Below, piece by piece: positions 24,301-64,000 of a stretch of 64,000 nt of DNA. Position 1 is the stretch's first letter. Each line of letters starts with the position of its first letter. The notes beneath the pieces were generated by a model, which worked only from the letters and a program-made list of their open reading frames with translations, was not told the origin of the DNA and searched no databases. Both the position numbers and the translations under genes were made by a program. Source of the stretch: Rhynchonema sp. JSB1_4 (taxonomy: Eukaryota; Nematoda; Chromadorea; Monhysterida; Xyalidae); assembly GCA_030248065.1 (NCBI GenBank), contig JASAMV010008303.1, forward strand, positions 1 to 64,000. Reading direction: 5' to 3'.

Positions 24301-27300
24301 CCATTTCCAGTTTCCAGTATGACTAAGGGCATATTGGAAAATGGAAATGAAACTGCAGCAGTCATGTTTTGACATGTGACAAAAAAATTTTATGTTACAC
24401 CCAAAACAATTGTGCTCGCGCAGCTGATTGGTCAGATTTCACACAGAAAATGTTTTGTTTCATTTCCATTTTCCATTTTCCAGTATGCCCTTAGTCATAA
24501 TGGAAATGGAAAACTTGGACATAGAATATTTTTTGCATTTCCATTTCCATTTTCCACTATGACTAAGGGCGCCCTAAACGATTGCCAGAAACAGTACATA
24601 TTCTATATTCACAAAAATCACCGAAAATCCCAAAATACAAAAAAGAAAAAATAGAGAAAAAAGCGCGAAACGAGCCCGACATCCGAATCAGTGCATTCAT
24701 TCAATCCAACCACACATACCGTATTCGCAGCAGCAGCAGCGCCCCCTTGGACCAAATCCTGCATCCCGATTGATTGTCGATTTTCATTCGCAAATTGCTG
24801 CATCATTGCGCGCAGCGGGTCAACCGGTGCCGACATTGCGTGTGGAGCGGACACGGGTGCTGGGCCAGGGTGAGCCATGCCCACTCCGTGGTAGGAACTG
24901 CACATGGATGCACCAACTCCACCGCCACTCGAGGCGTAGTCCGGTACTGGAATCGCAATACGAAATGTAGGAACCAGAATCTACAACTCAAGTTTACAAC
25001 AGTAATTAGGAACATCAACCAGTTAGGTGCCGCAGCCTGTGGCCTTCAGGTCGGTTGGGTGGTGTTGAAACCCCCGAAGAAAAACCCGAAAATCGAAAAC
25101 ACCGAAAACAACAACCCCGAAAAGTAGAAAATGTGTGAAAAACTGGTCCTTTTGTTGGAAAAGGTTACTCATGTAGATCGCGCGACGAAAAACGGGCACT
25201 GGTACAGTTCGGGATTAAGATCATGTGGTTCTCGTTTGGTCATGTCTTCCTGGCCGGTAGCCTAGGTAAGCCGGTGGCTTTTTCGGTTTTCAACGGGCGG
25301 GTTATGTGAACTTTGTACTGTGTGATATGTATCACTGAAATGTTTATTTGGTGGATGATACCACAGCAGAACTGACGACGTCTCAGTCTCTTCGATACAT
25401 CACATACTTTTTCCCAAGAACTAAATCGAAATGGTTGCTGCGAGTGCACGCGCAGTCAGAGAACACATCAAACACAAAATCTGACGCAGGAACAAATATT
25501 AAAACGATTGACTACAACTACCCAGTTTCCAGGTCTTATGTGGTTCGCTATGTGAAAGACAGATTAATTGCAGCTCAATGTGGTATCGGACTAAGTCTAT
25601 GCCTAGTTTCGGCATAAGGATTTGGCTTAGGCTCCCACTTAATATTGGGTCTAGGGCCTAGACCCAATATTAAGTGGGTACCTAAGCCAAATCCTTATGC
25701 CGAAAACAAAGCCCGAAAGTGCCATAGTGCCTCAGGATTCGGAAAGGCAATTTCCATCCAGTGAATGGCCGACGAATACCATCGCAGATGTTTCACACGA
25801 CCATATAAATAAGTGACAAAGTTGCAGAAGGACGTTAGCATCCAAATGAACAAAAACAGAACAAAGACCAATCAACCAAACTTTGACAGCAACAAGGCAT
25901 CAAACATCCGGGTCACACACAACAACTCACATCCCAGCGAACTGCCGTCCCCTCCGTGCCCGTAGAACGAATGCGGCAACATCGGTGGTGGCATCGTACC
26001 CAATTGTCCCTGATGTAGCAAGGCCGATTGTGCCACAGCTGCCTGTTGCGCGTGCGCCATCGCGAGCAGAAACGGCAGACTCGCCGCCGTCGGATCCTTC
26101 GGTGCTGTTTGTTCTGCGAGAAGTCTTTTTTTTAATTTTTTGGTTACTTATTTGAGGAATTTTGATTTGTTTTTTCTAGCGACCTGACCGTTGTTCGACA
26201 ATAGCTTTGTAGGCGATCAAAAACATTTTGCACCTTGTTTTATGTTGATGCATTAAACAAAAATTAAACAGTGGCACTTCTGGCTTATAATAATGTGATG
26301 AAATCATCTCGTCAAACAAAGTCGTTGAACACATATGTACAGTATATTAGTTTTGGCGCTCATTTGGGGCTGATGTGTTCGACGACTTTCTTTGACGAGA
26401 TGATTTAACGACAAAAGTATCAGCCACACTCACACATTCTCCAAGCATTTCATAAGTGACGACAATAAAATCAAAGCAATTTCGGTTCAATATAAAAATG
26501 AATCAAACCAATTTTTTTGTGAGAGCCCGGCGTTTTCCAGGCGAACTATCTCCAAAAATATTTAAATATTTCTTTTCAAATTCAGCTATATGTAGCTGTG
26601 AGAACGAAGCAATCCGTGAAGAACCCATTCTCGCATCACAAGAAACTCTCAAATTCACTCAGAAATAACGCACCATGTTGCTGCTCGTGTTTCTCTTTCT
26701 GCTCTTCCAGCAGTTTCTGGTATTTCTCATTCAATTCGCGATACCGCCGGTCCAGGTCCTCGCATTTCCGTTCGGTCTGATCAAGTTTTCGACTGCTGGT
26801 CGCAACATCGCCGCGCAATTTCTCGTTCTCCGATCGCAACGCCTCGTAACCTGTTTGAAGGATGACAATAAAATTATTATTTTTCTTTGCGATGAATATA
26901 ACGCTGAGAAAGTTAAACGAAAACGCACTTTGCGAGTGCTGTTTCGACAATTTATCATACGTTTCCTGAATGGCATGTATGGCCACTTTCTGTGGCTCGG
27001 TGGCCGCCAACGTCACCGAGCGCAACATCGCCTCCAAAGATGCCATATCGACTGCCGGTGCTGCTGGGGGTGGTGGTATGGCCTGAAATTTACGGTTTAT
27101 GCAACAAAAAAAACAGAAAAAGTATGGGCGTGTGCTTTGTGGGCAGGTCAGGTGTGCGAACCAAACGCATGGCGCGTGGAGGGCGTTAGCGGTTTCGACT
27201 ATAGTTGCGGATGGAAAAGAACCTGGTCCGTTTTTTTGGACCGAAAATAAACTTCTGTGAAAAAACGGGCAAAATTTTCTAATATTTTTGCCAAAAAAAT

Positions 27301-30300
27301 CATGTTTTTGGCCCTTATTTTTTAACGTTCTGGAGGTTCGTCAATGCCTAAGTGCCATCTAGAGGATCAGAACGAGGTAACTTGGAGAGTTGGAGCAGTT
27401 TACATGTCTTCAATAGCACATAGTATCTTTGCACCATGCTTCATATCAGTCTTTAGGGTCAAATTACCCTGTACCTGTTATTTGATACCCTGCACTGGAA
27501 TATCCTCTCGAAATTTTTCGTTTTTTTTCGGTTTTTTTGTACAAAATATAAAGAACCGGTTTTTTGTGTCTTGTGGACGTTGTCCGATGGCGAGGCACGA
27601 CGCGGACCGATTTACCACTGAATTCATGGCAAAAGTTGACGTTTCGGGAGCAACAAGGACCCTTATCAAGACAAGCCGACAAACATGCACACAAACACAA
27701 CAACCAACAAGACAATTGCAAAAAAAAGACAGTAAAATCCCCCCGACTGACCCACCTGGTGTTGAACATGGCTTGGTGTGGTCTCGGCAGCGAAGAACGC
27801 ACTGGCACTGGTCGCGTTCGACACATTCTGATCATCCAGCTGACGTCCGTTGTCCATTCCTCCTCCGAATTGGGTCTGCAAAAAAAGTCAGTTCTTTCGG
27901 CACAAGCAGAGATCACAGGATCGATCAGATCAGACCCAGGTGGATCCAGGAACGTGGACGGGCCGGCGGAGAATAGTGTAAACCAGCCTTACTTTGCAGT
28001 CAAAGACCATGCCGTAGCACCCTGAATTCTTGCACACCTAAAATGTTTGGGTTACTGTAGCCGCGTCTCGCGTTGTTTGCTTGTGAAAGCGCCAAGATCA
28101 TGAAACATTTAGCGCGCGTTTGTGCGTGTGTTGTTTATCGGCTTTACGCACAAAGCGCGCGAGACGTGGCTACAGTTACCCGAAAAATTTGGGTGTGTAA
28201 GAATTCATCGTGATATGGTATGGTCTAAGTCTGCAAAGCACGGCTGGTTTGCATTTAGTTTCTGGTCCGGAGGGGGAACAGGCGGTACCCCATTTTTTCG
28301 GAAGGGAACCGCCATACCTAGCTGGGGGAAAAGGGGAAGACCCAAATTTGAGAAAAGTCATTTTTTGAGGTCGAAAACTTGACGCATTTTTGCCACTTTT
28401 TGGAAAAACTCAATAAAAAGGGTATTTTGGCGATTTTTGACAACATTGACCTGAACATCACTCAATTATAAGCAATGTTATAACTTTTCATGGCAAAAAA
28501 TCGATGTTTTTCGACCTCATTTTCCCAAAAATCGCCCCAGCCATAATACGTATTTTTACGAGTTTTTCGGCGAAAATTTGGAAAAAGCACAATTTTTGCC
28601 TCATTTTTTGGCCAAATTGTATCACAAAAACGGTGTTCTTTACCTTTTGAGTGACCAAAATCATACCTCTCACGTTTCCGGTCCCAACCCCGCATCATAT
28701 CTCTCACACATGGACCTGCCACTGCGCTGCCCGAGGGGGACAACTCTCCCCCCACCCCAGGAACTATACTGGCGGAAACCGATCACTTGGTGGCAGAGGC
28801 AGGCGGCATCAGAGTTCGGTTGGAGACAAAAAGGAAAAAATCTTTTAGGGAAGATACTGTGCCACTACCACTGCCCAGTGTAGGTCCTGGTCCGGTAGAG
28901 GAAATTAGTGTACCTCCCTACTTTTTTGGAGGGGAAATTACCCTGGGGGAAGGGGGGGAAGACCCAAAATCAGGAAAAAGTCACTTTTTGAGGAAGAAAA
29001 TTTGACCTATTTTTACCCCTTTTTGGAAAAAATTCTTCATAAAAAGGGTATTTTAGCGACACAGGCTACCCCCCCCCCACCTCCAACACTGATACCTACT
29101 GCACCATGCCAAACATGAATGGGTTACCTACTGTACCCGCACCAGGCGAGGGGAATACCTACTGTACTGGGCGCCAGTGCTGTGGCTGGGGGGGGGGGTC
29201 CCCCCCAATGGTACCCTACTCGCCCCGGCCTGGTACGCTACCCCCTACCCGCCCCGCTCTGGTACCCTACCCCCCTACCCGCCCCGCCTTGGTACCCTAC
29301 CCGCCCCGATTTTTACCCCCAAAATGCCCATTTTTCGGTCAAAAATGCCCAAATTTCGACCGAAAACCCTAAAAAGTGCAAAAAAATCTCGCGCTGCGCG
29401 CGATATATGTACTTTTTAGTACATAAAAACAGGCACCCGAAAAAACTTGTGTTGTACCCTACCCGCCCCGAAAAATATCCCCCTCCCCCCCAAACCGTAT
29501 TTCCCCCCAAAATCCGAGGTACACTACCGTTTTGTCGGAAATAGTACCAGGGGGGTCTATTTTTTCACTGGGGTCATTTTGGGGTGGTTCAATTTATGGG
29601 GGGGGGGTGGGTTTCAATTATTGGGGGGGTTATATTTTTCAATTGTCCCCCCGACGAAAAAAATCGGTGTTAATGATTCCAATAAAAATGGCTTGTTTTC
29701 GGTATTTTCTAACTTTAACAGCGGCAATTATGCTTAAAAAGCTGTATTCTGTTGTGTACGCAAGTTTAAACTACGTTTGACGCAACAACACAGCCTTACC
29801 GTACCACTAATCTGTGGTACGGTGAAGGTTGGGGTGGGGTTCTATTAATGGGGGGGTCAATTAATGGGGGGTTCTATTTTTGATTTCGAGCCATTTAGGG
29901 GGGTTTAATTAATGGGGGGGGGGGTCAATTAATGGGGGGTTCTATTTCCGACAATACGGTACCCCCTACCAGCCCCGATTTTTTCCACTTATGTACCCTA
30001 CCTACCCGCCCCCAGTGTTCGAGGTACTCTGGAGGGGGCATACCTACTGTACCGCGCTCGGAGAGGGGGATACCTACTGTACCAGAGCCGATGGCCTGGG
30101 GGGGGTTATGTACCCAGGGGCAGTGGTGTCGTTGAGAAATCGAAATTTTCCCATACCCAGCCCAATTTTCGGGAAATTTCCCATACATACCCCCAAAAAT
30201 CAAAAATTTCCCATACCAGGGGGGGGTTTCTCCAAAAACTCAAAAATTTCCCATACCCGAGGGTGGGGGTTTTGAAAAAATGACCCCAAAGGAGTACTAA

Positions 30301-32136
30301 AAATGCCAAAAATTGGTCTAAAAAGTGCTTAAAACAGAGTTTTCTTGCGGCAGCAAGCGATTTTTGACATTTTTGGAAAAAAAGGCCAATTTTGGTACTT
30401 CTCGGGGTCAAAAAGTCATTTCTTAGGGGTGCTTGTTCCAAAAGTGAAAAATTTCCCATACCCCATACCCCCGGCCGATTTCCCATACCCCATACCAGGG
30501 GGGTAACCCCCCCCAACCCCCCCCTAACGACACCACTGGTTGGGGGGGTTAGGTTTTTGGGTGAAAATTTTTAATGTGTTTATTATGTGTGGAATCGTGT
30601 GAAAACGTAGTATTTGCGCGCGTTGCGCGCGAATTTTGGGTAATTTGAGGTAAAAAAACACTGATTTTACACTAATTTTGGCCATTTTGGTTAAAAATTG
30701 GCACTTTTGGGGCAAAATCGGGGGGATACCTACTGTACCGGGGTGAAAATCGGGGGGATACCTACTGTACCATGCCAAACATCGGGGGGATACCTACTGT
30801 ACCAGGCGAGGGGGATACCTACTGTCAGTGTGGTGGCAGGCCAATCGACCCAAGATACCCTAGGGGGGGGGAAGGTTTCGGACTTACTCGAGATACCCCC
30901 CAGAGGCTACCCAAGATACCCCTATGGTCCGTCAAAAGGCGAAAAAAGGCCGTTTTTTGCATGCAATTTTACTGCAAAACTGGCCTAAAAATGGGTGTTT
31001 TTTGACATTTTTGCCGAAAATTGGCCTAAAATGACCATTTTTAGGTGTTTGCGCGCGGAGCGCGCGATTTTTAGGGGTTCCGAGGTCGAAAAACACCGAT
31101 TTTTGCCTTTGAAAAGCATAAATCTACTTACTCGAGATACCCTTTGGGGTCGGCTCGAGATCAGTGTAGTTCCTGGGGGGGGAGGGGGGGGGTCCCCCCC
31201 CTAAGGTACACTAACCGCCGCGACCAAGGTACACTAGTACACTAACCGCCGCGCCAGGTACACTAACCGCCTCAATTTTTGCCTAAAATAGGCATTTTTA
31301 GGCCTAAAATGGGCATTTTTAGGCCAAAAATGGGTGATTTTTAGGTCAATGATGTCAAAAGTGGCCAAAATACCCGTTTTATTGAGAATTTTTTCGAAAA
31401 AGGGGCAAAAATCGGTCAAATTTTCTACCTCAAAAAGTGACTTTTTCCTGAATTTGGGTCTTCCCCCCCCCCCCTTCCCCCCAGGGAGGTACACTAACCG
31501 CCGCACGGAAAAAAGGGGTAGGTACGCTAACCGCCGCGCCGGACCAGGAACTACACTGCTCGAGATAGATACCCTTCCCCCCCCCATCCCCCCCCTAAGG
31601 GTTGACTCGAGATAGATACCCCTTAGGGGGGGAATCCCCCCCCCATCCCCCCCCAGCCACTACAGTGCCTACTGTACTGGGGGGGACCCCCCCCACCTCC
31701 AACACTGCCCGCCCCGCCAAAGTAGCCACAGCACTGCTGGGCGCTACACCCAAACCCCCACCTCCAACACTGCCGGGCGAGGGGGCGATACTGTACCTTT
31801 GTGGCACCTCATCCCCACCAGCCACAGCACTGCTTCAAACGCCAGCCGAATCAGAAGACATGAAACGAAGATGAAGGAACCGACCGTGTCTCGCATTTCC
31901 CCAAAGCGCCGCTGTCCGCCTGACTGGTTCAGCACGCCTGCCAACCTCGACGTGATGTATCTCGATCCCTGATTTCCGCCGCCGCTCCTGAATTTAGCTA
32001 TACTTTGTTAATTTTTTATAAAAAATGGAGACATTGATTGACAAACCAACCACGATCTGTCTGCCGCTCCGCTCTGGCTACCAAACGATGAATTGTGCAG
32101 AGATTTAGCTGTCGGATTGCCTTGACGCTTTTCCAT
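9370..32136 (-). CDS. npp-9: Nup358/RanBP2-type nucleoporin (NPP-9-like), about 34 exons
   Basis: ATG at 32136-32134, 4 nt after a TTTCAG; stop at 9372-9370. Exons (high-low): 32136-32051, 31987-31885, 27875-27756, 27082-26929, 26850-26674, 26113-25931, 24946-24720, 23995-23873, 23469-23380, 23320-23164, 23094-22966, 22651-22533, 18691-18599, 18510-18373, 17741-17625, 17556-17454, 17385-17244, 17168-16990, 16598-16458, 16297-16151, 15972-15830, 15259-15092, 14095-13958, 13830-13714, 13624-13528, 12874-12748, 12380-12170, 11898-11817, 11742-11647, 11507-11377, 11002-10832, one unresolved near 10600-10790, 10443-10321, 10030-9827, 9504-9370. Phases agree throughout except at the unresolved exon. 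About 1,550 codons. Order: Gly/Asn-rich N-terminus, coiled coil (exons 4-5), Ala/Gln- and FG-type regions, Ran-binding domain 1 (18691-17454), RanBP2 zinc finger 1, FG region, Ran-binding domain 2 (15259-13528), zinc finger 2, an acidic linker, a divergent third PH-like/Ran-binding region (10443-9827), acidic tail. Known role of the family: cytoplasmic filaments of the nuclear pore, binding Ran-GTP. No TPR or cyclophilin domain is seen, as I recall for nematode NPP-9. Confidence 0.82.
11213..11581. repeat. Inverted repeat pair flanking a single nucleoporin exon
   Basis: Arms at about 11213-11258 and 11537-11581 share GCGTATAGTCCAGCCAC and, after four differing bases, TCATGAGACGACTTTTTT in reverse complement. 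Between them lies exon 11507-11377 of the nucleoporin gene, which joins its neighbours in phase on both sides. The arms are therefore in the two introns flanking this exon. They may be two copies of a MITE or one element that captured an exon. Confidence 0.7.
13305..13322. repeat. (TATG)n microsatellite
   Basis: About four tandem TATG units in a nucleoporin intron, followed by a C/G-rich stretch with no exon. Confidence 0.8.
17244..17385 (-). other. RanBP2 zinc finger 1 (domain note)
   Basis: The exon ends within [15 protein letters not shown] and the next exon (from 17168) supplies CACC, giving W-x-C-x2-C-x10-C-x2-C, the RanBP2-type zinc finger. The second finger spans exons 12874-12748 and 12380-12170 with the same spacing (WECTSC...CVSC) and an intron at the same place in the finger. 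Each finger follows a Ran-binding domain through a linker starting NTPQKP, so finger plus domain look like a duplicated module. Confidence 0.85.
18088..18340. mobile_element. Second copy of the long-stem foldback MITE
   Basis: The arms begin TTTCGTTGCCTCATGC and end GCATGAGCCAGCGAAA, with the inner stem ACACACAGTCAACAAGCCACGC. It is homologous to 4348-4618 but shorter on the left arm (about 20 bp missing). It lies in a nucleoporin intron between the second and third exons of Ran-binding domain 1. Confidence 0.7.
18843..19640. repeat. Foldback repeat with C4GA4-type arms and TTAGGC-bearing tandem core
   Basis: The left arm (18843-18980) is an array of CCCCGAAAAA units and the right arm (19520-19640) is its reverse complement. 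Inside these, sequence around GGTGGGTATTCATG (19011) pairs with CATGAATACCC (19480). Between them, at 19104-19420, are about four tandem units of roughly 90 bp, each with two or three TTAGGC followed by CAGCCAGGAAGAC. A partial relative lies at 25058-25290. All is inside the 3.8 kb nucleoporin intron 22532-18692. Confidence 0.7.
20392..20890. repeat. Nested foldback within the 19764-22488 element
   Basis: TTCATCTGCATACTTGGAGG at about 20388 pairs with CCTCCAAGTATGCAGATGAA at about 20866, and the pairing continues inward (TTTTCGCTTCCGTC / GACGGAAGCGAAAA). The opposite arm of the host element (about 21300-21320) runs straight through the site, so this piece is an insertion. Target duplication not resolved. 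Confidence 0.6.
21744..22284. mobile_element. piggyBac-like MITE with a resolved empty site
   Basis: 541 bp, ends AGGGGCCACGACATTATTAT / ATAATAATGTCGCGCCCCCT, with TTAA at 21740-21743 and 22285-22288. The opposite arm of the surrounding foldback carries the uninterrupted site with a single TTAA at 19965-19968. Its interior is itself a long hairpin (arms about 21900-22000 and 22065-22170, e.g. GCGAAACATTT / AAATGTTTCGC). Confidence 0.88.
23484..23712. mobile_element. 229-bp foldback MITE
   Basis: Ends GGTCGATTTATAC and GTATAAACCGACC pair, with inner stems rich in GGCAGTCA / TGACTGCC-like words. It lies in a nucleoporin intron between exons 23995-23873 and 23469-23380. No clear target duplication. 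Confidence 0.6.
24236..24574. mobile_element. PIF/Harbinger-like MITE
   Basis: 339 bp, perfect-looking ends GGGCGCCCTTAGTCATAG / CTATGACTAAGGGCGCCC with TAA on both sides (24233-24235, 24575-24577). A 3-bp TAA/TTA duplication with GGG ends fits PIF/Harbinger. A second inverted pair (GGGCATATTGG / CCAGTATGCCC) sits inside at 24327-24490 and looks like a further copy of the same end. Non-coding, in a nucleoporin intron. Confidence 0.72.
25607..25705. repeat. Near-perfect 99-bp palindrome with almost no loop
   Basis: TTTCGGCATAAGGATTTGGC on the left is matched by GCCAAATCCTTATGCCGAAA on the right; the arms meet around CTAGGGCCTAG. Only a couple of mismatches near the middle of each arm. It lies in the nucleoporin intron 25930-24947, next to TTAGGC-like words. 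Confidence 0.85.
26300..26406. mobile_element. Foldback MITE at the outer edge of the giant palindrome
   Basis: AAATCATCTCGTCAAACAAAG and CTTTCTTTGACGAGATGATTT pair across a loop of about 45 bp. The left arm of the giant palindrome ends inside this element: the right arm keeps only half of it (about 59667-59733). Confidence 0.7.
28024..28208. mobile_element. Foldback MITE shared by both palindrome arms
   Basis: TGAATTCTTGCACACC and GGTGTGTAAGAATTCA bound it, with inner stems GTAGCCGCGTCTCGCG / CGCGAGACGTGGCTAC. The reverse-complement copy is at about 57895-58080. No gene inside; it lies in nucleoporin intron 2. Confidence 0.65.
28250..29174. repeat. Left part of the hAT-derived repeat nest in nucleoporin intron 2
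   Basis: Contains several CAGTG-type ends (CCAGGAACTATACTG at 28757, CAGTGTAGGTCCTGG at 28876, CCACCTCCAACACTG near 29078) and GAAGACCCAAA...AAAAAGTCA blocks also found at 730-910. Individual elements cannot be paired with target duplications here. Short ORFs are present but made of repeat DNA. The homologous right-arm stretch is 56909-57850. Confidence 0.6.
30121..30538. mobile_element. hAT-like element, CAGTGGTGTCGTT ends, left arm only
   Basis: CAGTGGTGTCGTT and AACGACACCACTG-type ends are inverted. The body has repeats of AAATTTCCCATACC. The right arm runs across the corresponding place (about 55590-55610) without it. Target duplication is hidden by G-runs. Confidence 0.65.
30826..31667. 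mobile_element. hAT-like element, second level of the nest, left arm only
   Basis: CAGTGTGGTGGC at the left end and GCCACTACAGTG at the right, flanked by an exact 8-bp duplication CCTACTGT (30818-30825, 31668-31675). The interior has repeats of CTCGAGATACCC and contains the element 31162-31558. Ends are imperfect, so the duplication is the main support. Confidence 0.75.
31162..31558. mobile_element. hAT-type element, CAGTGTAGT-end family, innermost
   Basis: CAGTGTAGTTCCTGG and CCAGGAACTACACTG with exact duplication CTCGAGAT (31154-31161, 31559-31566). Interior: AGGTACACTAACCGCC units and the TTTTTAGGCC-rich block. Same family as 688-1466 and 55968-56355. Confidence 0.87.
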
Positions 32137-32145
32137 TGATCTGAA
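32051..32145 (-). promoter_or_regulatory. First nucleoporin exon with candidate trans-splice acceptor; head-to-head gene boundary
   Basis: Reading the minus strand, TTTCAG lies at 32146-32141 and the ATG begins at 32136. No upstream exon in frame is needed because the ORF opens here, so the TTTCAG may be a spliced-leader acceptor. The L12 gene starts at 32482 on the other strand, leaving about 345 bp for both 5' regions. The same arrangement is conserved in the right arm (54818-54828). Confidence 0.5.
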
Positions 32146-32481
32146 ATCTGCACGGATGTGTTGTGGACTTCAATTTCTGACCTCAAAACAGAGAACAAAA
32201 ACCCAAAAAATGAAATGACCGTCCGTCCGAGAATTGTCACTGAAGAGATTAAAAAAGAAAAGAAAAAGAAAAAATTTGGAAAGTTTCACAATTTTGGGCC
32301 TGGGGGCTTTGTTTTCTTGAAGTTTGTCAGTTTATTTTCCTCGCCCAATCTTAATATTCATGTTTTGTTGTTTCAAAGCGTCGTGAGTTTCCAGGTGAAG
32401 CAAATTCGGCAAATTCTGCGGCGCACAAACCCAATTTTTCACGAGCAAAACACTTCTTCTTCGAAACTGTTGAACAGAACA

Positions 32482-34620
32482 ATGAACAACACGTTGGTTT
32501 ATCGTCGAGTTGCTCTCAACATTCGTCAGTCATTTCGGATCCGTTCGCGTTGTGTTGCGAGCTGTTCAACGCTTGGACAATCACAGATCTCACTGAAAGT
32601 GACAAATTTGCAAAAACTGCGCCGATTCTCCTCTGACGTCGCCGCAGCCGAAGTCCCCGCGCCAACGCCAGATTCCGAAGCCAAGCAATTCAGTCCGAAA
32701 ATCACGTCAATTGTTGATCAAATCGCTTCACTGACGCTCGTTGAAGTCGCCGATCTGAACGATGCATTGAAAGTTTGTTCGTGTTTTTTTTTTTCGCTGA
32801 AACACAAATTGCAGCACAATTTGGCTGAAATTAGAAGAAAATCGCTGCCGTTACAGCAACGTCTGAAGCTTCCCGACACTCCAATGGTGGGCGCTGGCAT
32901 GATGATGGCGACACAGGCTGCTGCGCCCGGTGGCTCTCAGGTTTGTGACGTTTCTTTCATTTTTTATGCGAGTCCTGAGTCCATGAGCCGAGTGCTCATG
33001 TCCAGAGGTCAGAGAGCTTTTGCCTTTTCCTTCCACGATTTTTTCAATGAACGTTACATTTATCAAGCAACCATTTTTATCTTTCGATTTTTACAGTCAG
33101 CGGACCAAGCGGTAAGATATCCAAACAAATGTTGCTTCATTCATTGATCGTTGCGAGCGTCTGTTTTGTGGTTTTGGTGGTGGTTTTATCTTGTCGCGCC
33201 ATGATGTGACTGTCGCGTATTTTGTTTTGTCTGTCAGCGACCGCTTGATGAAAATTAAAGGAACGAAAGAATTTCCAAGTTTAATTTCAGGCCGCCGCAT
33301 CAGCAGCCGAGGATATCGTTCCAGAAAAAGTGAATTTCTCCATCATTCTGCAAGCGCTCGCTGATGAGTCGAAAAAGATTGCGTTGATCAAGGAAATCAA
33401 GAAAGTGGTGCCGGGATTGAATCTCGTTCAGGTCTGTTGTGTTTCTTTCTTGTTTATGAAATTGCGAAGATTTCTCTGATGGCGACGGCGAGCAGTTAAA
33501 TTGTCGGGTTTGAGAATATCTGTCTGGCGAAACATTTTTGAGCGCTTTTATTATTTGAGCAGGCGTCGGCATGCTTTTCATCAAGCCTATAGTTGCGGAT
33601 GGAATCGTTTTTTTCGTGAAAAAAAACGGTTTTTTTCGACGGTTTCTGGAGATGAAAAAAAACAGAAAAAACCGCAGCTGCCTAGAAACTTTTTCAGAAG
33701 CATGTTTTTTGTAGATTTTTCGCTAACTTCAGAAAATATTTTGAAAAATACCTCTATACAAAAGGCGCGAGGTGTAAAAATGTGTCAATAACACTCCGGC
33801 GCTGGGCAAACTAACGTTAACATAGGCCGAAAACACGTTATTTTGGGCTCCCTTATCCTCATGCACCACGATTCTTTGTCGAGTTTTTTTCGGAAATTTT
33901 TCCAAATATTTAAAAACAGTGTAATAAAGCCATATGTCGTGTTTGTCTTTTTTGTCGAAAATGGCGTTCTTCGCTTCAAGAATAGAAGTGATATGATTCC
34001 AGCGGCTGGCTCCTGTCGAGCTATTTTCTGACATTCTGGGGATCGTTTTTGCAAATATTTTCTCAGTCAATTTGAGCAATCCTCGCTGCGCTGACGAAAT
34101 ACAGATTCCAACACTGTACAACCTGGTCATAGACCAGGCTTTTTTGCCATTTGAGGTTTTTAATTTGCCTTTTCGATTTCGAGCCAGGTGGCGATTATCA
34201 CCGGTTGCATATTGCAAGGAGGTTCTGCAATAGGATCCTTAGTTTAATCTATGAAAAATTTTCTCCAAAAAAACTGAAATTTGCGCTGGGCGCGAAAATT
34301 CACGACTTTTTTTCCTTCAAAATGCAAAAATCGCTTCTGACATCACCACTTCAATTTCGAAATCGACACTTGTGCTTTGGGGTCAACTGGCGATTTTCGC
34401 CGTTGGCCTTTTTAAAAAACTCACAGACACAAGCCATCAGATTGTATGTTTGTGATTTCATTTGCGCGTGGGCAATCAAACCGATCTTCCCTTGTTGTTT
34501 CAGGCAAAGAAATTCGTCGAAGCTCTCCCTGCCACGGTGAAGGACGACATCACACAAGCCGAAGCTGATGAACTCAAAAAACAACTGGAAGATGCTGGTG
34601 GAAAAGTGGAAGTGAAATAA
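32482..34620 (+). CDS. mrpl-12: Mitochondrial ribosomal protein L12 (bL12m), left-arm copy
   Basis: Five exons: 32482-32772, 32857-32940, 33097-33111 (only 15 bp), 33291-33431 and 34504-34620 (stop TAA); all junctions in phase 0. 215 residues. The N-terminal about 50 residues are Arg/Ser-rich without acids and end RRFSS, a typical mitochondrial presequence cleavage motif. Then comes the L7/L12 dimerisation region (IVDQIASLTLVEVADLN), an Ala-rich hinge, and the C-terminal domain with IALIKEIK, PGLNLVQAKKFVE and ending GGKVEVK, which binds translation factors on the mitochondrial ribosome stalk. Length suits the family. The second copy in the right arm is also intact and differs at R21C and E57D. 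Confidence 0.93.
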
Positions 34621-45626: not shown

Positions 45627-45975
45627 AACATTTTTAACCAGTGGTGAGCTTGCCAAAATCGTTCATTCTGTGCATTATCCATTAAAATATACTTGTACTT
45701 GTACTTTTGAGTTGTCATGTTATGGGCGAAAATTATGGTTCTCTTTTTCAACAATTCTTCATTTGCTGTATTACTTACGCAGATTCCGTGCCACAGTCCA
45801 GAAGGCTCAACAAAAACCATTCACACTAAGATTGAAATGTCACTGACTGCAATGCACTGTTCTACATGGCTATGTACAAATAGCGTGCTCAGATGATTAT
45901 GTTGATTGGTCCTTCTTTTTATTTTGAAAAAGATGGTGTTGCCAAATAAATGAATAAAAGTATTTTTAAACTGAC

Positions 45976-48900: not shown

Positions 48901-51867
48901 TAGGTAATATTATTATTATTATTATCATCACAGGGCAGCTTTCTTCAGTGACGGTCATCATATTCTTCGTCAGCAGCGGTGGGGCAGTTGATATAATATA
49001 TCAATACCTATTTGCGTTAGGTTCAGACAACATTTGCAACCACCCACATCCCAATCCAGTCACATAGACAGCTTGTGATCGCCGATTGCACGTTTTCGAA
49101 TTGGCGCCGCAGTCACAATCCTGATCCGGCAAGCGATAATCGGCAATTGAGGCATTTGAGAATTCAGTTTCTTCCGGGATAGCGCACAGACAGAATTTGT
49201 TGAGGTGAAGCACTGAAAACAACTTTATCGAGCCTGGTGAGCATATCGGCCTGAACTGACTTGGTCAAGTGACTTACTTTTTTAAATGAGAGATTTTGCT
49301 GATTATGAATATGCACAAAACTACGAGATGTTTCCAGACAGCTAAATGGAAACTATTTCATGCAGGCACATACGCCGATGCTCTTGTGGAGGTGGTTTGT
49401 GGTCATTATGTGAAAATTGAGTCTTTTCGACCGACTATTTCACGCAGGTCTAAATAAATCGAATCAGGAAATCTCAACCAAAAAACCTCACTGGGGCAGA
49501 TCGGAAGGTTCCATCAGTAAAGGTTAGCACCGGCAATTTTTATGAAAGTGAAAGGTCAAATCTTTTTTAAGATACCGAAATCTTTTTTCTCACCGGCCAA
49601 TTGACAGCCAAACTGCAAGCATCTATCGGCACACTTTTCTGATGTTTCAAACCCTTCGCCAACATTGAGTCGGTATGGAATCACGTTCGTTTTCGAATTC
49701 GGCCGCAATGTGATCGAATAACAGCCGAGATATTTGTATTGATTCATCAAGTCTGAAACCATTTGATTGAATTATTTATGAACGCTTGATACATCCAAGC
49801 AGCTAGACTATGGTGGCCAATATTGGCTTCATCACAGTTTCAGGTGCCATTGAAACCAGTGGTTTTTAAAAAAAAAAATTTTTTTTATTAAAAAAAAATT
49901 TTTAAAAAAAAAAAGAATTCGTTCCAAAAGTTAAAAAAAAATTTTTTTTTATTATTTCAAAATTCGAAAATTTCTCTATTTTTTGCTCTAAAAGTGCTAT
50001 TTTTTGCATAAAAATTGCTACTGTTAACATCACCCGACCCTACCATGGGTGTATTGGGTGCCATAATCGTTGTTTTGTGGCATCTAGACATAGTGCACAC
50101 ACTCACATGGCCTCTCATATGATTACACATGTACATGTGACTGGGTGGGCATGCATTTATCCATGCAACAGACCCGAAAGCAGTGATTCGGTGTGATATT
50201 CACTCTATATTTACACTGTTTGTCACATATTTGCATTGGTCGTGTACCAAGAGGCAATAGTTTCAACCAAATTTACCGTCTTGAGTGTCACAAAGCCACA
50301 CCAAGGCACCCACACCACGTGGGGGAAGTGTACGGGTGTGTACCTGACTACTGTTGGTACTCATTGACCATTGTTTAGTATTGTTTTCGTGTCGTGAGTG
50401 CTTTATATGCACTTACCACACGTTATGGAAGAAAAATGCCACTATTTTTTGCTTTAGCGCTCATTTTTTTTCGTTTCTGGCAGTTTTTGGCTGGAATAAA
50501 AAAATTTTTTTTTAAATTAAAAAAAAAATTTTTTTAAAAAAAATGGGGTTTGAATAAAAATTTTTTTTTATTAACCACTGATTGAAACATCAACCAGCTA
50601 TGTATGCATGGACATGATTGGTTAGACTGAAGATGTGCTGGTGCACCACCCAATTGTCAAAAGGCGGCAAAACCAATTTAAATCACCTCCAGTCCCGCAA
50701 GATCGATGGAAACTCGGCGCTCTCATCGTGCCATTGCCAATTCGGCACGCAATGTCCACAATTTGTTGTTTGCAGCTGACTGATTTTGCACGCGACAACG
50801 CTGATCTGTGAGAATTATAAGAGGTACGCTTTTGAGTACCGTTACTGTAGTGACACATGTGTATTTGCGCTGGTGTTTTACATGCGAACATAAAGCCGCA
50901 GCTCGTGTGCGCGTCTCTGTTTCTTTCGGGATATCACGTGACCGCCTCGTCTGGTGGTGACTGGTATGTGAAAACGGATGTCAAAACGGTCAAGCACAGA
51001 AAACACGCTGCACATTCGCTTTCTGGAGCGCTACTTCCGTGAAAGCTGTGATGACCAGTGATCGTTTTGGAAAGCTATCCAGAAAGTTTCGACCCCCCCC
51101 CCCCCCAATCTATCGTTAACTTCCCAAGCTCGCGCGGACTTTTATCAGCGCATGAAATTTATCTCTTACAGACCCAAGTGAAGAAAAGAACGCACTAACA
51201 AAGTCAACGGCTGATTTTGTAGATCGCAGTGAAATGTTGGCGATTTCGGCTCATCAACAACGACGGATTCAACGTCAGCAGTAACATTTGCCAAATGAAG
51301 CACCGTTTCAGGTTCCGGACGCCACGCCTGATCAGAACTCTGTTGAGCTTCTTGAGGCAACATTTCCAGCTAAAATTTTTATTTTTCTATTTGTTCGGTC
51401 TTTCTTTATTATGGCAATGGAATGGGACCATTAACTTTTTGACAAACCACTTGCGCTCTTATTCAGCACATGAAACATTTTATCATTTTGTTGGCAGGCA
51501 CTCAGCCAATCTCTCAGACAAGCTGAAACCCATAGAAATGTTTTGGCCAACACTGGTAAAAAGGTGGCATTTAAACAATAATTAATTTTACGTGTGTTAA
51601 ACTCGACCATAAAAAAACAATAAAAATGCCTCAAATCTCAAAACAATTTCTAACCGGCGGAAGCTGTACGGTCAGCAACATGCATGCAGTCAATACTATG
51701 TTGACGGTCAGCAGTAGCAGGCCGACGCAAACGAACAGTGCCGCCGGGACATTGTCATGAGCCCAGTCGGAGACAGTGACTTCGGTGTCATGAAGGTCCT
51801 CGTCTGAAGCTGGTTTCTCATCTTGCTTCTGAGTTTCTGGCGCTTTGAGTTTGCGGTGGCGTAACAT
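45976..51867 (-). CDS. sqv-6: Peptide O-xylosyltransferase, right-arm copy, 3' end missing
   Basis: ATG at 51867-51865; the last visible exon ends at 45976. Same eleven-exon structure as the left-arm copy in reverse, with no stop codons in the exons I compared. Amino-acid differences include LPQF to LAQF in the sixth exon, LLVKNG to LRVKNG and ILTQQ to ILTHQ in the Branch domain. It is truncated at exactly the same exon. The intron between exons 4 and 3 side carries a hAT insertion (49857-50580) absent from the left copy, while the TA-flanked MITE of the left copy is missing here. Confidence 0.83.
48146..48610. mobile_element. hAT-type element, CAGGGTTGGGC family, right-arm copy
   Basis: CAGGGTTGGGCAAAAAACG and TTGCCCAACCCTG, exact duplication GTACAGGT (48138-48145, 48611-48618). 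Same insertion as 38038-38455 but with better-preserved left end and a slightly longer body. Confidence 0.9.
49857..50580. mobile_element. AT-rich hAT-type element, right arm only
   Basis: 724 bp, ends CAGTGGTTTTTAAAA / [17 protein letters not shown] (right end reads ATTAACCACTG), exact 8-bp duplication ATTGAAAC (49849-49856, 50581-50588). The left arm has the empty site with one copy (GTTTCAAT, 36504-36511). Subterminal runs of A and T; the middle (50030-50440) is unique DNA with no clear gene. Confidence 0.92.
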
Positions 51868-52464
51868 TGCCGGAATTTTGCTTGCAGATGTGTTTTTTGG
51901 GTACATACTGGAAGTTGGAAGACTTCAGTTGCAGCCGAAAGAAATCCGAATGCGCGCATAGACCACGGACTATGAATAATACGTGCACTGAAGAGTGACA
52001 GTATCGCCGTGTCGGTGTGCAGGCATGACCCTCTTTCGCTGTGTACGCACAGTATGCACGCATCATGGTGCACTTTCAGTGCCAAAGCGTGTGCACTTGT
52101 ACCGTATGTGTACACCACACATACAAATGGCCAAAGGTCAAGCCAAAGTTGCGCATGCGGTTGTGCAGCAATGACCAAACCTGTTTTTTATGGGTGTTGC
52201 GTGTGAGTGTTGTTGTGACCACTCCAAGAATACAGCAACTTGCAACGTACACGGAACAGTGTGCCAAAAGCCTTGGGTGCGCCGCCAAAACACAGGTTTC
52301 TATCCGACTTTTTATCGGAAACTTCAAACAAAAGCAGTAACATGGCAAAATGTACAAGAAAGTGTCATTAATCGATCATTTGAGCAAAACAGACGCACAC
52401 AATTATCATTCGGGCACCGAAATGCGACCAGATTCACATATTCTACATTGAAATTTTGCCAAAT

Positions 52465-54476
52465 TTATTTCACTTCCACTTTACCACCAGCGTCTTCCAA
52501 TTGTTTTTTGAGTTCATCAGCTTCGGCTTGTGTGATGTCGTCCTTCACCGTGGCAGGCAGAGCTTCGACGAATTTCTTTGCCTGAAACAACAAGGGGAGA
52601 TCGGTTTGATTGCCCACGCGCAAATGAAATCACAAACATACAATCTGATGGCTTGTGTCTGTGAAGTTTTTTTTAAAAAAGGCCAGCGGCGAAAATCGCC
52701 AGTTGACCCCAAAGCCCAAGTGTCGATTTCGAAATTGAAGTGGCGATGTCAGAAGCGATTTTTGCATTTTGAAGGAAAAAAAGTCGTGAATTTTCGCGCC
52801 AAGCGGAAATTTCAATTTTTTTTGGAGAAAATTGTTCATACAAACTAAGGATCCTATTGCATAACCTTCTTACAACATGCAACCGATTATAATAGCCACC
52901 TGGCTCGAAATCGAAAAGGCAAATTAAAAACCTCAAATGGCAAAAAAGCCTGGTCTATGACCAGGTTGTTCAGTGCTGAAATCTGTATTTCGGCAGCATA
53001 GCAAGGATTGCCAAAGACAAACACGACACATGGCTTTATTACTTTTTTAAATTTTTGGAAAAAATTCCGAAGAAAACGTGGTGCATAAGGATAGGGGAGC
53101 CCAAAATAATGAGTATTGGAGTGTTATTGACAATCATAACGAACGAAATGATCAAAACAAGGCACTTTTACACCTCGCGCCTTTTGTATAGAGGTATTTT
53201 TCAAAATATTTTCTGAAGTTAGCGAAAAATCTACAAAAAACATGCTTCTGAAAAAGTTTTCAGGCAGCTGCGGTTTTTACTGTTTTTTTTTTGTTTTTTT
53301 CCACCTCCAGAAACCGTCGAAAAAACCGTTTCGTTTTTTTTTCACGAAAAAAACGGGTTTTTATCAGCCACAGGCTTTATGAAAAGCATGCCGACGCCTG
53401 CTCAAATAATAAAAGCGCTCAAAAATGTTTCGCCAAACACAAACAGATATTCTCAAACCTGACAATTTAACTGCTCGCCATCAGAGAAATCTTCGCAATT
53501 TCATAAACAAGAAAGAAACACAACAGACCTGAACGAGATTCAATCCCGGCACCACTTTCTTGATTTCCTTGATCAACGCAATCTTTTTCGACTCATCAGC
53601 GAGCGCTTGCAGAATGACGGAGAAATTCACTTTTTCTGGAACGATATCCTCGGCTGCTGATGCGGCGGCCTGAAATTAAACTTGGAATTTCTTTCATTCC
53701 TTTGATTTTCATCAAGCGGTCGCTGGCAGACAAAACAAAATACGCGACAGTCAAGTCATGGCGCGACAAGATAAAACCACCACCAAAACCACAAAACAGA
53801 CGCTCGCAACGATCAATGAATGAAGCAACATTTGTTTGGATATCTTACCGCTTGGTCCGCTGACTGTAAAAATCGAAAGATAAAAATGGTTGCTTGATAA
53901 ATGTAACGTTCATTGAAAAAATCGTGGAAGGAAAAGGCAAAAGCTCTCTGACCTCTGGACATGAGCACTCGGCTCATGGACTCAGGACTCGCATAAAAAA
54001 TGAAAGAAACGTCACAAACCTGAGAGCCACCGGGCGCAGCAGCCTGTGTCGCCATCATCATGCCAGCGCCCACCATTGGAGTGTCGGGAAGCTTCAGACG
54101 TTGCTGTAACGGCAGCGATTTTCTTTTAATTTCAGCCAAATTGTGCTGCAATTTGTGTTTCAGCGAAAAAAAAACACGAACAAACTTTCAATGCATCGTT
54201 CAGATCGGCGACTTCAACGAGCGTCAGTGAAGCGATTTGATCAACAATTGACGTGATTTTCGGACTGAATTGCTTGGCTTCGGAATCTGGCGTTGGCGCG
54301 GGGACATCGGCTGCGGCGACGTCAGAGGAGAATCGGCGCAGTTTTTGCAAATTTGTCACTTTCAGTGAGATCTGTGATTGTCCAAGCGTTGAACAGCTCG
54401 CAACACAACGCGAACAGATCCGAAATGACTGACGAATGTTGAGAGCAACTCGACGATAAACCAACGTGTTGTTCAT
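52465..54476 (-). CDS. mrpl-12: Mitochondrial ribosomal protein L12 (bL12m), right-arm copy
   Basis: ATG at 54476-54474, stop at 52467-52465. Same five-exon structure as the left copy, including the 15-bp exon. Reading frame intact; R21C and E57D differ from the left copy, both conservative positions in or near the presequence. Both copies look functional. Confidence 0.92.
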
Positions 54477-55228
54477 TGTTCTGTTCAACAGTTTCGAAGA
54501 AGAAGTGTTTTGCTCGTGAAAAATTGGGTTTGTGCGCCGCAGAATTTGCCGAATTTGCTTCACCTGGAAACTCACGACGCTTTGAAACAACAAAACATGA
54601 ATATTAAGATTGGGCGAGGAAAATAAACTGACAAACTTCAAGAAAACAAAGCCCCCAGGCCCAAAATTGTGAAACTTTCCAAATTTTTTCTTTTTCTTTT
54701 CTTTTTTAATCTCTTCAGTGACAATTCTCGGACTCGGACGGACGGTCATTTCATTTTTTGGGTTTTTGTTCTCTGTTTTGAGGTCAGAAATTGAAGTCCA
54801 AAACACATCCGTGCAGATTTCAGATCAATGGAAAAGCGTCAAGGCAATCCGACAGCTAAATCTCTGCACAATTCATCGTTTGGTAGCCAGAGCGGAGCGG
54901 CAGACAGATCGTGGTTGGTTTGTCAATCAATGTCTCCATTTTTTTATAAAAAATTAACAAAGTATAGCTAAATTCAGGAGCGGCGGCGGAAATCAGGGAT
55001 CGAGATACATCACGTCGAGGTTGGCAGGCGTGCTGAACCAGTCAGGCGGTCAGCGGCGCTTTGGGGAAATGCGAGACACGGTCGGTTCCTTCATCTTCGT
55101 TTCATGTCTTCTGATTCGGCTGGCGTTTGAAGCAGTGCTGTGGCTGGTGGGGATGAGGTGCCACAAAGGTACAGTATCGCCCCCTCGCCCGGCAGTGTTG
55201 GAGGTGGGGGGGTGGGTGTAGCGCCCAG

Positions 55229-56900
55229 CAGTGCTGGGGCTCCTGTGGCGGGGCGGGCAGTGTGGGCGGTGGGGGGGTTGGGGGCGGAGCCCCCCCCCAG
55301 TACAGTAGGTATCCCCCCTCGCCTGGTACAGTAGGTATCCCCCCCGATGTTTGGCATGGTACAGTAGGTATCCCCCCGATTTTCACCCCGGTACAGTAGG
55401 TATCCCCCCGATTTTGCCCCAAAAGTGCCAATTTTTAACCAAAATGGCCAAAATTAGTGTAAAATCAGTGTTTTTTTTACCTCAAATTACCCAAAATTCG
55501 CGCGCAACGCGCGCAAATACTACGTTTTCACACGATTCCACACATAATAAACACATTAAAAATTTTCACCCAAAAACCTAACCCCCCCAACCCCCCCAAA
55601 CCCCCCTAGGTACATAACCAACCCCCCAGGCCATCGGCTCTGGTACAGTAGGTATCCCCCCGCTCCGAGCGCGGTACAGTAGGTATCCCCCCTCCAGAGT
55701 ACCTCCAACACTGGGGGCGGGTAGGGGGTACCGTATTGTCGGAAATAGAACCCCCCATTAATTGACCCCCCATTAATTGAACCCCCTTAAATGGCTCGAA
55801 ATCAAAAATAGAACCCCCATTAATTGACCCCCCCATTAATAGAACCCCACCCCAACCTTCACCGTACCACAGATTAGTGGTACGGTAAGGCTGTGTTGTT
55901 GCGTCAAACGTAGTTTAAACTTGCGTACACAACAGAATACAGCTTTTTAAGCATAATTGCCGCTGTTCAGTGTAGTTCCTGGGGGGGAGGGGGGTCCCCC
56001 CCTAAGGTACACTAACCGCCGCGACCAAGGTACACTAGTACACTAACCGCCGCGCCAGGTACACTAACCGCCTAAATTTTTGCCTAAAATCGGTATTTTT
56101 AGGCCTAAAATGGGCATTTTTAGGCCTAAAATGGGTGATTTTTAGGTCAATGATGTCAAAAGTCGCCAAAATACCCTTTCTATGGAGAATTTTTTCCAAA
56201 AAGGGGCAAAAATCGGTCAAATTTTCCACCTCAAAAAGTGACTTTTTCCCGGATTTGGGTCTTCCCCCCTTCCCCGCCCAGGGAGGTACACTAACCGCCG
56301 CACGGAAAAAAGGGGTAGGTACACTAACCGCCGCGCCGGACCAGGAACTACACTGCCGCTGTTAAAGTTAGAAAATACCGAAAACAAGCCTTTTTTATTG
56401 GCATCAGTAACAACGATTTTTTTCGTCGGGGGGCCAAATGAAATATATAACCCACACAATAATTTACCCCCCCCCATAAATTTAACCCCCCCAATATCAC
56501 CCCAGTGAAAAAATAGACACCCCGGGTTCTATTTCCTACAATACGGTAGTGTACCTGGGATTTTGGGGGGGGGAATCCGGTTTGGGGGAGGGGGGGGGAG
56601 ATTTTTCGGGGCGGGTAGGGTACAACACAAGTTTTTTTCGGGTGCCTGTTTTTATGTACTAAAAAGTACATATATCGCGCGCAGCGCGAGATTTTTTTGC
56701 ACTTTTTAGGGTTTTCGGTCGAAATTTGGGCATTTTTGACCGAAAAATGGGCATTTTGAGGGTAAAAATCGGGGCGGGTAGGGTACCAGGGCGGGGCGGG
56801 TAGGGGGGTAGGGTACCAGAGCGGGGCGGGTAGGGGGTAGCGTACCAGGCCGGGGCGGGTAGGGTACCATTGGGGGGGACCCCCCCCAGCCACAGCACTG
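55229..56900. mobile_element. Composite hAT-type element, right-arm copy
   Basis: Duplication GCGCCCAG at 55221-55228 and 56901-56908, ends CAGTGCTGGGGCTCC (diverged) and CAGCCACAGCACTG. It is 0.9 kb shorter than its left-arm counterpart because it lacks the two insertions there, but it carries its own insertion at 55968-56355. Confidence 0.83.
55968..56355. mobile_element. hAT-type element, CAGTGTAGT-end family, right arm only
   Basis: CAGTGTAGTTCCTGG / CCAGGAACTACACTG with exact duplication CCGCTGTT (55960-55967, 56356-56363). The left arm has the empty site (AACAGCGG near 29717). Nearly the same sequence as the left-arm element 31162-31558, at a different place. Confidence 0.9.
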
Positions 56901-59900
56901 GCGCCCAGTACAGTAGGTATTCCCCTCGCCTGGTGCGGGTACAGTAGGTAACCCCTTCATGTTTGGCATGGTGCAGTAGGTATCAGTGTTGGAGGTGGGG
57001 GGGTGGGGTTTGGGGGGGGGGTAGCCTGTGTCGCTAAAATACCCTTTTTATGAAGAATTTTTTCCAAAAAGGGGTAAAAATAGGTCAAATTTTCTTCCTC
57101 AAAAAGTGACTTTTTCCTGATTTTGGGTCTTCCCCCCCCCCTTCCCCCCAGGGAGGTACACTAATTTCCCCTCCAAAAAAGTAGGGAGGTACACTAATTT
57201 CCCCTACCGGACCAGGACCTACACTGGGTAGTGGTAGTGGCACAGTATCTTCCCTAAAAGATTTTTTCCTTTTTGTCTCCAACCGAACCCTGATGCCGCC
57301 TGCCTCTGCCACCAAGTGATCGGTTTCCGCCAGTATAGTTCCTGGGGTGGGGGGAGAGTTGTCCCCCTCGGGCAGCGCAGTGGCAGGTCCATGTGTGAGA
57401 GATATGATGCGGGTTTGGGACCGGAAACGTGAGAGGTATGATTTTGGTCACTCAAAAGGTAAAAAACACCGTTTTTGTGATACAATTTGGCCAAAAAATG
57501 AGGCAAAAATTGTGCTTTTTCCAAATTTTCGCCGAAAAACTCGTAAAAATACGTATTATGGGTGGGGCGATTTTTGGGAAAATGAGGTCGAAAAACATCG
57601 ATTCTTTGCCATGAAAAGTTATAACATTGCTTATAATTGAGTGATGTTCAGGTAAATGTTGTCAAAAATCGCCAAAATACCCTTTTTATTGAGTTTTTCC
57701 AAAAAGTGGCAAAAATGCGTCAAGTTTTCGACCTCAAAAAATGACTTTTCTCAAATTTGGGTCTTCCCCTTTTCCCCCAGCTAGGTACGGCGGTTCCCTT
57801 CCGAAAAAATGGGGTACCGCCTGTTCCCCCTCCGGACCAGAAACTAAATGCAAACCAGCCGTGCTTTGCAGACTTAGACCATACCATATCACGATGAATT
57901 CTTACACACCCAAATTTTTCGGGTAACTGTAGCCACGTCTCGCGCGCTTTGTGCGTAAAGCCGATAAACAACACACGCACAAACGCGCGCTAAATGTTTC
58001 ATGATCTTGGCGCTTTCACAAGCAAACAACGCGAGACGCGGCTACAGTAACCCAAACATTTTAGGTGTGCAAGAATTCAGGGTGCTACGGCATGGTCTTT
58101 GACTGCAAAGTAAGGCTGGTTTACACTATTCTCCACCGACCCGTCCACGTTCCTGGATCCCCCTGGGTCTGATCTGATCGATCCTGTGATCTCTGCTTGT
58201 GCCGAAAGAACTGACTTTTTTTTGCAGACCCAATTCGGAGGAGGAATGGACAACGGGCGTCAGCTGGATGATCAGAATGTGTCGAACGCGACCAGTGCCA
58301 GTGCGTTCTTCGCTGCCGAGACCACACCAAGCCATGTTCAACACCAGGTGGGTCAGTCGGGGGAATTTTACTGTCTTTTTTGCAATTTTCTTGTTGCTTG
58401 TTGTGTTTGTGTGCATGTTTGTCGGCTTGTCTTGATAAGGGTCCTTGTTGCTCCCGAAACGTCAACTTTTGTCATGAATTCAGTGGTAAATCGGTCCGCG
58501 TCGTGCCTCGCCATCGAACCACGTCCACAAGACACTGTGCTAGTTGCGAAAAAACCGGTTCTTTATATTTTGTAAAAAAAAACCGAAAAAAAACGAAAAA
58601 TTTCGAGAGGATATTCCAGTGCAGGGTATCAAATAACAGGTACAGGGTAATTTGACCATAAAGACTGATATGAAGCATGGTGCAAGGATACTATGTGCTA
58701 CTGAAGACATGTAAACTGCTCCAAATCTCCAAGTTACCTCGTTCTGAACCTCTAGATGGCACTTAGGCATTGACGAACCTCCAGAACGTTAAAAAATAAG
58801 GGCCAAAACATGATTTTTTTTGGCAAAAATATTAGAAAATTTTGCCCGTTTTTTCACAGAAGTTTATTTTCGGTCCAAAAAAACGGACCAGGTTCTTTTC
58901 CATCCGCCACTATAGTCGAAACCGCTAACGCCCTCCACGCGCCATGCGTTTGGTTCGCACACCTGACCTGCCCACAAAGCACACGCGCATACTTTTTCTG
59001 TTTTTTGCATAAACCGTAAATTTCAGGCCATACCACCACCCCCAGCAGCACCGGCAGTCGATATGGCATCTTTGGAGGCGATGTTGCGCTCGGTGACGTT
59101 GGCGGCCACGGAGCCACAGAAAGTGGCCATACATGCCATTCAGGAAACGTATGATAAATTGTCGAAACAGCACTCGCAAAGTGCGTTTTCGTTTAACTTT
59201 CTCAGCGTTATATTCATCGCAAAGAAAAATAATAATTTTATTGTCATCCTTCGAACAGGTTACGAGGCGTTGCGATCGGAGAACGAGAAATTGCGCGGCG
59301 ATGTTGCGAGCAGCAGCCGAAAACTGGATCAGACCGAACGGAAATGCGAGGACTTGGACCGGCGGTATCGCGAATTGAATGAGAAATACCAGAAATTGCT
59401 GGAAGAGCAGAAAGAGAAACACGAGCAGCAACATGGTGCGTTATTTCTGAGTGAATTTGAGGGTTTCTTGTGATGCGAGAATGGGTTCTTCACGGATTGC
59501 TTCGTTCTCACAGCTACATATAGCTGAATTTGAAAAGAAATATTTAAATATTTTTGGAGATAGTTCGCCTGGAAAACGCCGGGCTCTCACACCGAAATTG
59601 CTTTGATTTTATTCTCGTCACTTATGAAACGCTTGGAGAAGTGTGGCTAATGCTGTTGTCGTCAAATCATCTCGTCAAAGAAAGTCGTCGAACACATCAG
59701 CCCCAAATGAGCGCCAAAACTAATATACATAAAACACCACCCCCAACCCAATGCCACACCCTTTAATCTCCTTGGAAATGAGAGGACAATACGGACCACA
59801 CGGGGCCCACCAATTTGTAGGCTGTTCACCACTTTGATACAAAATAATGATCTACGTTGCGCCGTGCCGAGGAGGAGGTACCATCTTAGCTTATCCGTGA

Positions 59901-63929: not shown

Positions 63930-64000
63930 GTTTCCCAAAATCGCGCCTGCGGCGCTTAGTTTGACCGCCAAAATGACTCATAAAGAAGTTGATGTACCGC

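Follow-up and report, generated by a model that had tools for sequence, protein, structure and literature searches.

A giant gene-carrying palindrome in a Rhynchonema contig, probably two alleles of one locus joined head to head

Palindromes in draft genomes have been taken as signs of lost meiosis or of gene conversion without sex. Those of the Y-chromosome type have large arms with genes around a short spacer, and gene conversion takes place from arm to arm; those of Adineta vaga were artefacts, as Simion et al. reportedly found in 2021. In the excerpted text of the papers concerned, Nowell et al. recovered 23 palindromes from the 2013 A. vaga assembly and none from A. ricciae (PMC5916493), a later A. 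vaga assembly contained one palindrome only, with the caveat of a low N50 (PMC7749112), and 11 palindromes with a wide range of synonymous divergence (Ks) were reported in the parthenogenetic Folsomia candida (PMC5490193). The available passages of PMC12448946 cite Simion et al. 2021 for artefacts from uncollapsed haplotypes and count read depth among the evidence that the palindromes of Botryllus are real, and those of a survey of parthenogenetic animals (PMC7953838) cite the Y-chromosome type with arm-to-arm conversion and warn that the survey's own palindromes include misassembly false positives. Here we describe a giant imperfect palindrome from the nematode Rhynchonema sp. JSB1_4. It lies in a stretch of 64,000 bases (the window), bases 1-64000 of the 80,082-base contig JASAMV010008303.1 (C5089 below) in an assembly of 203,913,205 bases and 5,747 contigs, and it is probably made of two diverged alleles of one locus.

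Comparison of the window with itself gives inverted collinear blocks of 91-99% identity that run from 26342-26486 / 59591-59728 inwards to 40982-42278 / 43345-44651, the longest of which has 3,273 aligned columns; chance is excluded as the origin of this match. Two long reverse-complementary arms, of 15,937 bp (arm 1) and 16,384 bp (arm 2), lie on one sequence, as they do in a chromosomal palindrome. An earlier note on this DNA had placed a giant imperfect palindrome of two 16-kb arms at 26335..59733, which is right within ~10 bp, and the 1.07 kb spacer that it described measures 1,066 bp. The parts are as follows, C1754 being a second contig (153,355 bp) that terminates within the spacer.

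1..26341, plus strand: left flank, with the remainder of a nucleoporin-like gene; 12000-17800 and 25750-26341 are without a second copy in the assembly searches described below
26281..26426: imperfect hairpin, 70% identical to its own reverse complement, straddling the outer edge of arm 1
26342..42278, plus strand: arm 1, continuous with the left flank, into which the nucleoporin-like gene runs on
42279..43344, plus strand: spacer, of which 42346-43344 is also the end of C1754
42386..42664, plus strand: ~280-bp high-copy miniature inverted-repeat transposable element (MITE) in the spacer, also in C1754
43344..43345: inner junction, where the spacer meets arm 2; C1754 diverges at the same base
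43345..59728, minus strand: arm 2, the reverse complement of arm 1 with 3.1% substitutions plus indels
59728..59763: outer junction of arm 2, with the start of a transposon-like element (59763-62356) ~33 bp beyond
59764..64000, plus strand: right flank, repeat-rich, with only repeat-type blocks in common with the left flank; it runs on to the contig end at 80082

In the full alignment of the arms 13,651 columns match and 435 differ (435/14,086), and there are 78 indels, 11 of them of at least 20 bases. Two of the indels were checked as mobile-element insertions, each private to one arm.

37370..37646, plus strand: 277-bp MITE in arm 1 only, from the arm alignment
49857..50588, minus strand: 732-bp insertion in arm 2 only, an A/T-rich hAT-like MITE with an 8-bp target-site duplication (by eye)

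Divergence is patchy along the arms: the ratio of variance to mean (dispersion index) is 7-11 in windows of 200-500 bases, identical runs reach 521 bp, and one 500-column window reaches 12% divergence, part of it, near 33.8 kb, being hard to align. Recombination between alleles and conversion between arms can both explain such patches; the patchy identity expected of gene conversion is equally expected of alleles, and the pattern fits divergence as between haplotypes. Because of the substitutions, the private MITE insertions and the patchy divergence, the arms are two sequences with separate histories, and the same three features bear out the earlier remark that this is not a simple fold-back read.

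The inner junction was compared with the last 60 kb of C1754, whose end lies inside the spacer, 67 bp before the arm. Its last 1.8 kb matches 42346-43344 with 2 substitutions in ~1,000 bases and one 4-bp indel, the match being interrupted by a hAT-like insertion (net 796 bp) that by eye has an 8-base target duplication. This insertion is missing from C5089, so C1754 and C5089 come from different molecules. C1754 leaves the spacer exactly at 43344, the base after which arm 2 starts in C5089, and continues into sequence that is not arm. An unduplicated path therefore exists, and the spacer has two continuations, arm 2 and C1754, which is the alternative assembly path that a join of alleles would leave at its junction. 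The spacer differs from C1754 by ~0.2%, whereas the arms differ by 3.1%; were C1754 an unduplicated allele older than the duplication, its spacer should differ by at least as much as the arms do, and the observed values are 2/~1,000 and 435/14,086. By eye the joint of spacer to arm 2 is blunt, with no common base and no inserted base.

The arms carry genes, which the earlier note had listed as paired copies of L12, a xylosyltransferase and the 5' end of a nucleoporin. L12 and the xylosyltransferase are present in both arms and the 5' exons are paired; the name nucleoporin is more doubtful.

32482..34620, plus strand: L12 gene (mitochondrial-type ribosomal protein), arm 1 copy, from Pfam and alignment
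52465..54476, minus strand: L12 gene, arm 2 copy, ends taken from the arm alignment
35210..40228, plus strand: xylosyltransferase exons, arm 1 copy, limits being those of the aligned pieces
46375..51867, minus strand: arm 2 copy of the xylosyltransferase exons, delimited by the arm alignment
26675..27082, minus strand: 5' coiled-coil exons of the nucleoporin-like gene in arm 1, limits approximate
58967..59470, plus strand: frame with the arm 2 copy of the nucleoporin-like 5' exons; the outer junction truncates the gene

Both L12 copies match Pfam Ribosomal_L12_N above its cut-off. Three exon frames of the arm 1 xylosyltransferase match xylosyltransferase 1 structures (6ej7), one of them also with Pfam Branch; two frames of the arm 2 copy have no Pfam match, a protein search that used one arm 2 frame as its query gave no relative at E 0.001, and this copy is recognised by its alignment to arm 1. 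The exon pieces that were aligned (4 of L12 and 8 of the xylosyltransferase) are open and free of indels in both arms. As for the coiled-coil gene, its next exon (by eye, ~26.1 kb, minus strand) is found in the left flank only, and further along in that flank one of the eight frames scanned has a RanBP1-domain match below the Pfam cut-off (E 0.0054). This match and phenylalanine-glycine (FG)-like repeats seen by eye hint weakly at a nucleoporin; the FG-like frame has no Pfam match.

Between the arms the nucleoporin-like 5' exons differ by 5 synonymous changes in 69 sites and 1 non-synonymous change in 249 sites. If the arm 2 fragment had been dead since the split, the probability of at most 1 non-synonymous change would be 0.014 to 0.025, and likelihood ratios of 13 to 21 favour constraint on both copies over one unconstrained copy. 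These exons appear to have diverged as if both copies were constrained, although the arm 2 copy is now a fragment, and of the comparisons made here this one separates the models best; a larger duplication with later loss of its outer end would pass it too. Divergence like that of alleles with constrained copies fits these exons and also L12, for which the proportions of synonymous (pS) and non-synonymous (pN) sites that differ are 0.026 and 0.006.

Other contigs of the assembly fold back as well. C4620 (10,769 bases), which is not a random pick and came up as a match to the far right flank, is folded on itself from base 1, where 1-3097 pairs with 3303-6773. Its larger block has 9 mismatches and 43 gap letters; the smaller block has 12 mismatches and 39 gap letters. 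In a survey of 15 contigs taken by round number, 13 by their first 10 kb and C1000 and C4000 in full, one (C1000) has a multi-kilobase fold-back to the contig end, with arms of ~4.5 kb in blocks of 99.5% and 95.5%, one (C2500) has a fold-back element with 1.5-kb arms, and the other 13 are without an inverted match longer than ~0.9 kb. Fold-backs in this assembly are not rare, but for the most part their arms resemble each other more closely than the arms of C5089 do, or are situated in repeats.

The number of copies of the arms was judged by searches of the whole assembly that score the best 40 candidates, among which an allelic copy of several kilobases is assumed to rank. The pieces searched were 38414-40970, 25750-28300, 57800-60900 and 43345-44650, which cover ~6 of the 16 kb of arm and lie outside the middle of the arms; among these candidates in the 204-Mb assembly their full-length matches are confined to C5089, and elsewhere there are short repeats. 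Copies at such divergence can be kept apart in this assembly, since 75.2-78.4 kb of C5089 has a copy on the small contig C4620, where four blocks match in order at 94-95% and repeat-type blocks of lower identity separate them.

We consider that two alleles have probably been joined between 43344 and 43345, most likely by the assembler. Such a join would explain why another contig competes at the junction, why the spacer is nearly identical in that contig, why the truncated gene shows constraint and how many copies of the arms there are. The arms would be diverged versions of a single locus, either alleles or, if the sample was pooled, haplotypes; the normal order of the locus would be nucleoporin-like gene, L12, xylosyltransferase, spacer and C1754. 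The spacer of one copy would have been joined head to head to the other copy in the laboratory or in the computer, the most likely cause being an inverted chimeric read that entered during library preparation or assembly, and the right flank may be a haplotype-specific repeat-rich insertion or a second misjoin. Of the origins that the earlier note had proposed, its joining of two haplotypes thus has the most support, from C1754 at the junction base, the constrained exons and the other fold-backs; the differing flanks and the neighbouring stretches without a second copy do not fit it so well. Several observations weigh against such a join. Beyond the arms the flanks are not parallel and share repeat-type blocks only; to account for this, a plain join of haplotypes would require another large difference, or a second misjoin, on the right. 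For each of four neighbouring stretches (12000-17800, 25750-26341, 59733-64000 and C1754:146355-151557) the best 40 candidates include no second copy apart from repeats, as expected if the arms alone were duplicated. The arms differ from 27 bp off the junction onwards, so one fold-back of the same molecule would be insufficient and a chimera between molecules, or mixed polishing, is needed. The xylosyltransferase differs between arms with pN 0.0135 and pS 0.0315, a rather high ratio that suits a relaxed paralogue, and the test on the nucleoporin-like exons draws on just 6 changes. The spacer comparison covers only 1 kb, and with a lowest sum of 3 changes among the 27 adjacent 500-column window pairs of the arms, the similarity of spacer and C1754 is at the low edge of the arm range and not far outside it. 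Finally, the C1000 fold-back lies over nested tandem repeats, 99% shared with a complex repeat region near the end of C3183, and is not proof of an artefact.

Inverted duplications that are real, of either of two kinds, are together a serious though less probable explanation. An old duplication, in which arm 2 arose as a copy of arm 1 that breaks off at its outer end within the nucleoporin-like gene and then diverged with gene conversion between the arms, C1754 being the unduplicated allele, seems unlikely to us. It gives a simple account of the single-copy flanks and of the truncated gene, though not of the constraint or of the young spacer. It agrees with the searched arm pieces being found twice on C5089 and nowhere else in full, with the four stretches just mentioned, with an arm 1 gene connected to its next exon and an arm 2 fragment that ends beside a transposon-like element, with identical tracts (up to 521 bp) of the kind that conversion between arms would leave, with arms that differ right up to the junction and with the xylosyltransferase ratio. 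The arm 2 nucleoporin fragment is, however, without relaxation, unless its outer end was lost only recently; the spacer would make the unduplicated allele younger than the duplication, unless recombination refreshed it; and the inner junction is without microhomology by eye. A recent rearrangement that joined two homologous copies head to head, by fold-back or end-joining between homologues, so that the arms were diverged from birth, is rather more doubtful still. It would explain why the exons are constrained in both arms, why spacer and C1754 are nearly identical and why the joint is blunt, and it would put a real palindrome on one homologue; the excerpted text of PMC4689423 allows inverted amplicons with sequence from both homologues in the model of origin-dependent inverted-repeat amplification (ODIRA). 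That model starts from short interrupted inverted repeats, whereas by eye no base is shared at the inner junction itself, and in a draft where other contigs also fold back we judge such events to be less common than joins made in assembly. It is thus with little confidence that we would propose a polymorphic 33-kb gene-carrying palindrome, made from homologues head to head, with the plain C1754 arrangement kept by the other homologue. Were the palindrome real, both alleles would be held in cis; were it a join of homologues, the parental alleles of L12 and the xylosyltransferase would sit on one chromosome, able to convert each other. The real chromosomal palindrome of the earlier note accordingly keeps the neighbouring stretches without second copy and the differing outer flanks in its favour, and is weakened by the C1754 path, the exon constraint and the other fold-back contigs. 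A fold-back of a single molecule or read (a missed adapter, or an inverted chimera made by amplification) is highly improbable, and as the sole cause we reject it on the pattern of substitutions, indels and MITEs. C4620 looks like one, and the relevant part of PMC13265396 describes inverted chimeras as common in mitochondrial reads after amplification of tardigrade DNA; yet such arms should be identical bar sequencing error, and those of C5089 have 435 substitutions as well as MITE insertions confined to one arm, one of which carries an 8-bp target duplication, whereas the larger block of C4620 shows 9 mismatches and 43 gap letters. Just as improbable is a product of programmed DNA rearrangement, for which nothing beyond the palindromic shape speaks among the features examined (no test was aimed at it); the 3% divergence of the arms implies long separate histories, not somatic formation from one copy.

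The surroundings of the palindrome are rich in repeats. The transposon-like element at 59763-62356, ~33 bases outside arm 2, has inverted ends of ~570-600 bases that are 74% alike, and its right part has relatives at 84-87% in at least 39 places. Members of a ~280-base MITE family occur in the window at 37370-37646, 42386-42664 and 3426-3685, and further along C5089 at 71742-72023, 72262-72537 and 76389-76671; the spacer copy has near-identical relatives (96-99%) at no fewer than ~40 places, and the other C5089 copies are roughly 82-94% alike. C1754 carries an A/T-rich hAT-like MITE (~151884-152669; L009), for which an 8-base target duplication is read by eye. A 234-base sequence occurs twice, identical and in direct orientation, at 63202-63435 and 63696-63929, and the end of C5089 (~78839-80082) has sequence in common with arrays on C2166 and C4847 whose units are ~245 bases long. 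The fold-back element of C2500 (L028:3092-6185) has 1.5-kb arms that are 98.8% alike, and it was rejected as an artefact palindrome because its arms recur in inverted pairs on several contigs (C3183, C4462, C1555, C1703 and others); we regard it as a natural element of the fold-back kind. On C4000, minisatellite arrays run in both orientations. None of the 10 open frames scanned in the right flank has a Pfam match, the flank having more frames of at least 85 codons outside that scan. The window has no known RNA genes or tRNAs at the thresholds used, and the canonical nematode spliced leader has no exact match on either strand of the whole assembly.

This locus shows that a palindrome in a draft genome can be put to a partial test with no data beyond the assembly: one can ask whether another contig competes at the junction, set the divergence of the spacer against that of the arms, and examine whether a truncated fragment was constrained. 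Its large gene-carrying arms, short spacer and patchy identical tracts are like those of Y-chromosome type palindromes; unlike those, the arms of C5089 are 3.1% diverged, and allelic recombination explains the patches equally well. With the chimeras of whole-genome amplification, as the excerpt of PMC13265396 presents them, it has in common that inverted repeats made in the laboratory can mislead an assembler; those chimeras arise from strands folding onto nearby displaced strands, whereas the arms of C5089 are two haplotype-like sequences. The palindromes of Folsomia candida, in the part of PMC5490193 that describes them, are likewise inverted duplicated gene blocks, the wide range of Ks being a feature of Folsomia. 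Like the 2013 palindromes of A. vaga, as outlined in the available passages on them, C5089 has homologous gene blocks in reverse order on one scaffold; unlike them, it has a competing contig that marks the junction base, and its outer flanks are not parallel.

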